A stretch of DNA of 64,000 bases, from contig NZ_AP024718.1 of the NCBI RefSeq assembly GCF_030294985.1, forward strand, positions 1,565,001-1,629,000, given 5' to 3'. The position numbers and the translations under genes are program-made. The notes under the pieces are model-generated. The model worked only from the letters and a program-made list of their open reading frames with translations, was not told the origin of the DNA and searched no databases. Positions within the stretch are counted from its first letter, which is position 1; each line of letters starts with the position of its first letter. Source of the DNA: Methylomarinovum tepidoasis. Lineage in GTDB: Bacteria; Pseudomonadota; Gammaproteobacteria; Methylococcales; Methylothermaceae. This document shows, one piece after another, positions 9,361 to 41,709 of the stretch.

Positions 9361-10101
9361 TTGGACTGGTACGAGGGTTTCGTCCTCCGCCGCCGCCCCT
9401 GGCGGGAAACCAGCCTGTGGTTCGAAGCCTTCACGCGGGAGGCCGGCAAGGTGGCGCTGATCGCCCGGGGAGCGCGGCGCCGCAAGCGCGCCCCAATCGC
9501 CCTGGAACCGTTCCAGCCGCTGGCGCTGTGCTGGCGGGGACGGGGGGAGCTGGCCACCTTGACTGCCGCCGAAGCCGCCGCGCCGCCGCTGCGTCTCGGC
9601 GGGACTGCCCTGTACTGCGGTTTCTATCTCAACGAACTGATGAGCCGGCTGCTGGCGCGCGACGATCCCCATCCGGCGCTGTTCGATAGTTACCGGGAGA
9701 CTCTGAAAGCTTTGGCCGGTGGCGAGGTGGAGGGGCCGCTGCGCCGCTTCGAGCTGCGGCTGCTGCGGGAAATCGGCTACGCGCCGCTGCTTGACCATGA
9801 GGTAGAATATGCCCGCCCGGTGGTGGCCGAGGCCCGCTACCGCTATCTGCCCGATCGGGGGCCGGTGGCCGATCCGGCGGGCTGGCTGCAGGGCCGGACC
9901 CTGCTGGCCCTGGCGCGGGACGCGCTGGACGACGGGGAAGTCAGGCGCCAGGCGAAACGGCTGTTGCGTCTGCTGATCGACTACCGCCTGCAGGGTAGGC
10001 CGCTGAAAAGCCGCCAACTGTTCCAAACCATGGTGAAAAAGCGTCAACCATCCCTCCCTAAAGGGAGGGGCTTGCGGGAGAACCTGCAAGCCCGGGGTTG
10101 A
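9361..10101 (+). CDS. recO: DNA repair protein RecO with an element-derived C-terminal tail
   Basis: RecFOR-pathway mediator that loads RecA on SSB-coated DNA. The OB-fold N-terminus (DWYEGFVLRRRPWRETSL, KVALIARGARRRK) and C-terminal helices (LRRFELRLLREIGYAPLL, GRPLKSRQLFQTM) are clear. The start is TTG 9361, two bases after the era stop, where alignment to other RecO proteins begins. Unusually, the last about 21 residues after Val225 (KKRQPSLPKGRGLREN...) are encoded by the left part of the HEARO-like element starting at 10037, and the stop codon lies inside one of its stems. RecO normally ends near the KSRQLF motif, so the core should be functional, but the tail is foreign. Confidence 0.92.
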   Translation: MDWYEGFVLRRRPWRETSLWFEAFTREAGKVALIARGARRRKRAPIALEPFQPLALCWRGRGELATLTAAEAAAPPLRLGGTALYCGFYLNELMSRLLARDDPHPALFDSYRETLKALAGGEVEGPLRRFELRLLREIGYAPLLDHEVEYARPVVAEARYRYLPDRGPVADPAGWLQGRTLLALARDALDDGEVRRQAKRLLRLLIDYRLQGRPLKSRQLFQTMVKKRQPSLPKGRGLRENLQARG

Positions 10102-10419
10102 CCAGGGAAAGCCGTAACCAACCGGCTACGTTGCAGGTAAGGCCAAAAGACCCACCCTGGGATGCTTCCTCAGTCCCAGGCTCTGGAAGTCCCGGTTGCA
10201 GACAAGGGCCGGGTACCTGCGAAACGGACTGGGACAGCGGGCCGGCCTGCGACATTCCCGAAGGGAGACACCCTGAAATGGGTGCGTTACCAGGCCCGTA
10301 AGGGCAGAGCCGCAAGGCCCGGCCGGGTGGAAAGCCTGGCACCTATTTCGTGTGTAACAACTTGTACGGAGGCCGCGCTTTCCTCCTTCGCCTTCCGGCG
10401 GGGGAAACCTGCGCGGGAA
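10037..10419 (+). mobile_element. ORF-less HEARO/ISC-like element (IscB-family relic) between recO and pdxJ
   Basis: About 380 bp with no plausible gene, inserted immediately after GTGA (10033-10036), a target type reported for HEARO elements (ATGA or GTGA). The left half is a dense array of hairpins (see the ncRNA entry). The right end is a long imperfect hairpin whose outer arms are CCGCGC (10373-10378) and GCGCGG (10411-10416). This is the organisation I know for IscB-type transposons of the IS200/IS605 group: structured omegaRNA on the left, the nuclease gene, then a right-end hairpin; here the nuclease gene is absent. Removing 10037-10419 joins recO to pdxJ with an ATGA overlap. Family assignment is from memory of the fold and flanks, not a search; the exact right boundary is inferred. 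Confidence 0.6.
10041..10340 (+). ncRNA. Structured RNA candidate, HEARO (omegaRNA-like)
   Basis: Successive helices can be drawn: 10043-10049 with 10096-10102 closes a domain containing hairpins 10052-10069 (7-8 bp) and 10071-10090 (8 bp, loop AGAA); 10156-10162 pairs with 10174-10180; further short GC-rich stems follow up to about 10335. The purine-rich linkers and the overall plan resemble the HEARO RNA class that is equivalent to the guide omegaRNA of IscB nucleases. Without an IscB gene in the window any guide activity would depend on a nuclease encoded elsewhere. A covariance-model search (Rfam HEARO) would settle the identity. Confidence 0.55.
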
Positions 10420-10423
10420 ACAG

Positions 10424-11179
10424 ATGAATCTTAGACCGATCCTGCTCGGCGTCAACATCGACCACATCGCCACCCTGCGCCAAGCCCGCGGCACCCCCTA
10501 TCCAGAGCCGGTCGAGGCCGCCCTGCTGGCGGAGAAGGCCGGGGCCGACGGCATCACCGCCCACCTGCGCGAAGACCGCCGCCACGTCCAGGATCGTGAC
10601 ATCCGCCTGCTGCGGGAGCTGATCCACACCCGCCTGAACCTGGAAATGGCGGTGACCGACGAGATGATCGCCATCGCCTGCCGGGTCCGGCCCGACGCCT
10701 GCTGCCTGGTGCCGGAGAAGCGTGAGGAGCTGACCACCGAGGGCGGACTCGACGTGGCCGGCCAGTTCGAGCGGGTCCGGGCCGCCTGCCAGCGCCTCGG
10801 CGAGGCCGGCATCGAGGTGTCTTTGTTCATCGACCCGGACGAGGCCCAGATCGAGGCGGCGCACCGGGCCGGCGCGCCGGTGGTCGAACTGCATACCGGG
10901 CATTACGCCGATCTCAAGGGCGAGGCCAAAGCGCGGGAGCTGCGACGGATCGAACGGGCCGCACGTCTGGGGGACAGTCTGAACTTGCAGGTCAATGCCG
11001 GCCACGGCCTCAACTATCACAACGTCGAGGCCATCGCCCGGATTCCCCAGATTGTCGAGCTGAACATCGGCCACGCCATCGTCGCCCGTGCGGTGCTGAC
11101 CGGATGGGTCGAGGCGGTGCGGGAGATGAAGCGGCTGATGCGGGCGGCCCGGGCGGAAATGTTGACCGGAACGAACTGA
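10424..11179 (+). CDS. pdxJ: Pyridoxine 5'-phosphate synthase
   Basis: Condenses 1-deoxy-D-xylulose 5-phosphate (product of the Dxs encoded in this window) with 3-amino-2-oxopropyl phosphate to form pyridoxine 5'-phosphate, the precursor of pyridoxal phosphate. The family signature is clear: [16 protein letters not shown] at the N-terminus, [25 protein letters not shown] and [11 protein letters not shown]. Length 251, slightly longer than the 243 of E. coli. In relatives pdxJ directly follows recO; here the HEARO-like element separates them, and its right-end hairpin lies just upstream of the start, with no strong ribosome-binding site between. Confidence 0.96.

Positions 11180-41597: not shown

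Positions 41598-41709
<112 letters not shown>

Follow-up and report, generated by a model that had tools for sequence, protein, structure and literature searches.

The window analysed here (64,000 nucleotides of the Methylomarinovum tepidoasis genome) contains recO followed by the vitamin B6 gene pdxJ. No gene was found between the two, and no ORF lies inside the element which separates them (Table 1). Scanning the whole window against Rfam gave two hits. The first is a HEARO RNA (RF02033, E = 7e-24) in this space, which covers the model completely from position 1 to 211 and exceeds the curated cut-off of 83 bits. The second lies far off and is an ordinary bacterial small SRP RNA (41607-41703, 76.8 bits). 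HEARO RNA is said to have been described by Weinberg et al. in 2009. The RNA fold of the complete element has an energy of -182.9 kcal/mol (z = -4.0 against shuffled sequences). An earlier examination of the letters (the sequence-only reading) had described this space as free of genes and densely structured and had named the HEARO/omegaRNA family from the fold and the target rule; the fold score bears out the former, and the Rfam score together with six genomic copies bears out the latter.

Table 1. Features at the recO-pdxJ junction (window positions) and the evidence for each.
Feature	Position	Strand	Evidence
recO, with a C-terminal extension of 19 element-derived codons	9361..10101	+	Pfam RecO_N and RecO_C; reading frame
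Predicted guide, 16 nt, ACCATGGTGAAAAAGC, at the recO 3' end outside the element	10027..10042	+	Inferred by analogy to OgeuIscB (PMC9640706)
Whole ORF-less HEARO element, 381 bp	10043..10423	+	Six-copy alignment; empty site in sister species G003
omegaRNA scaffold core (HEARO RNA)	10043..10273	+	RF02033, 118.6 bits, full model
Left subterminal palindrome CCCTCCCTAAAGGGAGGG	10052..10069	+	Sequence; paired in the HEARO model
Structured 3' domain of ORF-less copies	10286..10377	+	Covariance model R1; compensatory changes
Right-end hairpin	10373..10416	-	DNA fold -16.0 kcal/mol, z = -2.7
Target ATGA = predicted TAM = pdxJ start codon	10424..10427	+	Right end of 8/8 copies; empty site
pdxJ, immediately 3' of the insertion	10424..11179	+	Pfam PdxJ, E = 2e-106

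The ends of the element were determined from the alignment of the six copies and from the empty recO-pdxJ site of the sister species G003. The aligned copies start with GTCAACC, finish with GGGAAA(C/T)AG and are followed by ATGA every time. The limits first proposed, 10037-10419, placed the element correctly at the junction, but both exact ends were shifted. The GTGA at 10033-10036, taken as the target at that stage, belongs to the recO coding region and lies 6 nt away from the left end of the element; the target is the ATGA at the right end. In G003, the empty site reads CCAAACCATGGTGAAAAAGC/ATGAACCTTAG, with the right side opening ATGAACC; the 20 nt left of the window copy are identical to the left part of this site, and no target duplication accompanies the insertion. 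Comparison of the junction in relatives, which had been suggested as a check, showed that none of the eight congeners with an identified pdxJ (G003 included) carries the insert, so that the assumed insertion between recO and pdxJ is substantiated by empty sites. In the sister species the end of recO overlaps pdxJ, and the insertion has broken this overlap. The recO frame now enters the element for 59 nt up to a stop codon at 10099-10101, whereby element codons take the place of the RecO terminus, which reads HES in the inferred empty site. RecO of G003 ends MVKKHEP before the stop, i.e., with HEP.

Six HEARO copies with scores of 117-126 bits are present in the genome (2.44 Mb, two contigs). 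One of them, L001 (C1:773185; 126.4 bits vs. 118.6 bits for the window copy), is followed by an intact iscB of 451 AA. Its product matches RRXRR (238 bits) and NCBIfam guided_IscB (462.9 bits), carries an HNH domain and is homologous to TbaIscB (PDB 9k30) and OgeuIscB over the RuvC/HNH region, so an intact IscB is available in this genome for the predicted OMEGA system. The five others, including the window copy, are ORF-less, about 381 bp long, 92-97% identical and situated at unrelated loci. The search for further copies and for iscB, also suggested beforehand, thus yielded five additional HEARO copies and one intact iscB, in agreement with the earlier statement that the nuclease gene is missing from the element itself. 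The window element is confirmed as a HEARO carrying the guide RNA of the Cas9-like nuclease IscB without a nuclease gene. It resembles HEARO RF02033 in the complete model match above the cut-off, in the [AG]TGA at one end and in the occurrence of several copies per genome; it differs in that the usual, although not universal, ORF for an HNH nuclease is missing from the window copy and present in L001 only.

Among 41 genomes of the genus and order (own genome included), HEARO was found, besides the own genome, only in G003, where two copies are present. L007, which carries iscB, is 90.6% identical to L001 across 1.67 kb; L008 is ORF-less and shares its insertion site 5' of gltX with L003. The accA site is empty in G003 (CTGTTCAACGCCCG/ATGAAAAACC). 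As neither the pdxJ nor the accA insertion is present in the sister species, they are not ancient. For L004, which has 16 substitutions, 55 of 58 standard pairs are kept, compared to a null mean of 49.8; the signal is uneven among the diverged copies (L006, P = 0.07; L007, P = 0.28). Substitutions among the copies tend to preserve base pairs, and the pairing is largely retained.

These data bear on the question whether the element is a fossil, i.e., an immobile deletion derivative devoid of partner activity and tolerated between two genes. The absence of a nuclease or transposase gene inside the element agrees with this explanation, as does the lack of a detectable cognate TnpA in the genome (see below). 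We nevertheless regard it as unlikely: five ORF-less copies with one common internal structure are found at separate sites, which implies that the ORF-less form itself has spread; the core of the window copy scores close to that of the iscB copy; base pairing is largely kept among the copies; and the insertions are not ancient. For the same reasons of core score and pairing, the term 'relic' used in the sequence-only reading is doubtful. Five such elements together with a single intact IscB in one genome argue for a well-preserved member of the family rather than for a relic without a partner.

All ORF-less copies have a 3' sequence in common which is missing from the resident iscB copy. Due to this additional sequence, simple deletion from the resident iscB element does not account for them, and a recent loss of iscB from that copy is unsupported. 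A homologous 3' stretch was found in ORF-less elements of Chromatiaceae and Ectothiorhodospira. In the hairpins of this 3' domain, 6 of 18 pairs show changes on both sides (RNAalifold). The covariance model R1 gives 84.8 bits for the 3' domain of the window copy, which was part of the training set; it picks up all five ORF-less copies but misses the one with iscB. Searching 369 genomes with the 3'-domain model produced one further gammaproteobacterial match, shortly 5' of a clpX-like ATGA start. This match (L160, genome G271) lies between clpP-like and clpX-like genes. The assumption that the domain is exclusive to ORF-less elements was weakened, as the model also weakly matches some loci with IscB at the corresponding position; these matches suggest that the domain descends from the 3' region of the omegaRNA.

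Non-autonomous IS200/IS605 derivatives (PATE- or MITE-like) have subterminal palindromes at both ends, contain no transposase gene and cause no target duplication. The window element also has such palindromes and likewise neither a transposase gene nor a target duplication; it differs in holding a complete guide-RNA scaffold between its ends. When read on the minus strand, the right-end hairpin is situated about 10 nt past TCAT, which is the left-end layout of IS200/IS605. The window element is most likely a non-autonomous HEARO of the IS200/IS605 type. A search for tnpA, proposed along with the other checks, detected a single Y1 TnpA in the genome; a cognate TnpA of the HEARO elements was found in neither of the two element-carrying genomes. 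The one Y1 TnpA is encoded on the small contig, in a tnpA-tnpB element; judged by eye, the visible ends of that element are unlike HEARO ends, and their appearance lends no support to this TnpA as a possible mover. No Y1 TnpA was found in G003. HEARO nucleases are only sparsely linked to TnpA (PMC9755519).

Taken as a whole, the window element is probably a non-autonomous HEARO which has all parts required in cis and no protein gene, and whose omegaRNA serves the resident IscB in trans. The core fold, subterminal palindromes, exact insertion, six copies and empty sites are direct observations; the mode of action would be as follows. In IscB systems, the 5' segment of the omegaRNA serves as a guide of about 16-17 nt, and a TAM follows 3' of the target; for OgeuIscB, its rule is NNRR (PMC9640706). 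A Y1 transposase encoded elsewhere would insert the element 5' of ATGA. The operon transcript would then yield an omegaRNA beginning with ~16 nt of recO; this RNA would be loaded in trans into IscB from the copy upstream of accA. The complex would cut empty recO-pdxJ sites, consisting of the protospacer ending in GGTGAAAAAGC and the TAM ATGA, e.g., after excision or on an incoming allele, and repair off an occupied copy would keep the element in place. The occupied site would be spared because the element places GTCA instead of ATGA beside the protospacer: ATGA fits NNRR, the OgeuIscB rule, whereas GTCA does not. No other near matches to the predicted guide were found in the genome.

A system of this kind is known, as standalone omegaRNAs able to function with IscB have been reported (PMC9581776, citing Altae-Tran et al. 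2021). These resemble the present case in being omegaRNA loci without an own nuclease and with IscB elsewhere in the genome; here, each copy is a separate element whose two ends can be defined, empty sites are seen, and the function with IscB is a predicted one. Concerning the solved structures of OgeuIscB (PMC9640706) and TbaIscB (9k30), the likeness comprises the homologous RuvC/HNH region of the resident IscB and the HEARO-type omegaRNA; in difference to these, the IscB of the window element must act in trans and the TAM is a predicted one. With one iscB, five nuclease-less omegaRNA elements and the empty sites of the sister species, nature offers a compact and clearly delimited setting in which it could be tested directly whether a guide acting in trans keeps a nuclease-less element in place.

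ATGA directly adjoins the right end in 8/8 copies of the two genomes, and all seven independent insertions are situated directly 5' of an ATGA start codon. The genes starting there are pdxJ, accA, gltX (two orthologous copies), csm3, fumC, a narI-like and a porin-like gene; except for pdxJ, names were assigned by reading the proteins, with Pfam backing for csm2/csm3 only. The ORF-less L004 (C1:1341301) separates csm2 from csm3 in a type III-A CRISPR operon (Pfam domains RAMP and Csm2), its right end directly abutting the csm3 start codon. L002 (C1:51319) and L006 (C1:52415), both ORF-less, are 1.1 kb apart at the starts of the consecutive narI-like and porin-like genes. ATGA targeting would put elements onto the starts of genes in operons, and their being tolerated in compact genomes would thereby be explained. 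The pattern might reflect nothing element-specific, merely ATGA targeting combined with purifying selection in a compact genome, and we consider the chances of this explanation to be even. According to a simple gene call, the ATGA sites of the window comprise 342 genic sites, 32 intergenic sites and 26 gene starts; starts already make up 26/58 (45%) of the non-genic sites. Given this share, however, the probability of finding 7/7 independent insertions at starts is about 0.004. A further argument against targeting alone comes from IscB-bearing relatives, in which 21 of 27 right ends, placed by hand, are followed by a frame that starts there and runs for 60 or more codons, compared to 25% of all ATGA in the same HEARO-like loci.

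This last comparison is based on a pattern scan of public genomes, which retrieved 118 HEARO-like stretches; the covariance model was run on part of them only, and a few are probably chance hits. An IscB ORF is present in 61, whereas 35 lack it although their right flank extends for 450 nt or more, i.e., about a third of the loci with enough flank have no nuclease ORF. Among ORF-less loci with placed right ends, such a frame of 60 or more codons starts in 14/25; manual placement may favour ATGA, a bias of which the two-genome set is free. At L023, L038 and L054, and at L027 and L129, the frame containing iscB stops on ATGA or TGATG at the right end, a layout that would suit translational coupling of the gene downstream.

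Chromatiaceae ORF-less elements (L041, L065, L138, L093) end with GGAGGAACTG immediately before ATGA, which provides a strong Shine-Dalgarno sequence at proper spacing. In several other lineages AGGAG or AAGGAG is found at the right end, and many proteobacterial IscB-bearing elements have no Shine-Dalgarno sequence there. The end of the window element gives a Shine-Dalgarno pairing energy of -4.3 kcal/mol, no better than random 22-mers of the window (mean -3.05, sd 2.7). A portable ribosome-binding site as a general rule was rejected: the signal is strong in Chromatiaceae and in some other groups, many proteobacterial IscB elements lack it, and that of the window element is weak. The pairing value also concerns the idea that the element was kept in the recO-pdxJ operon because its RNA regulates pdxJ in cis. 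It does form the entire pdxJ leader and parts pdxJ from recO; yet it is absent from the eight congeners examined for pdxJ, the same element sits before functionally unrelated genes and the Shine-Dalgarno pairing of its end does not surpass chance, which renders this role highly improbable.

The start-codon placement and the right-end Shine-Dalgarno sequence of some relatives are the less familiar features. Tentatively, and with doubts prevailing, HEARO/IscB may be seen as a class of mobile elements which prefers start codons and re-supplies the 5' leader of the entered gene, in some lineages with a terminal Shine-Dalgarno sequence rendering the insertion translationally neutral; ORF-less forms would then make up a lineage of their own, which is stable, evolves separately and has a structured 3' domain. 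In Dolichospermum (L025), an ORF-less HEARO lies immediately 5' of an ATGA start, and the predicted product of this frame reads like the N-terminus of TnpB.
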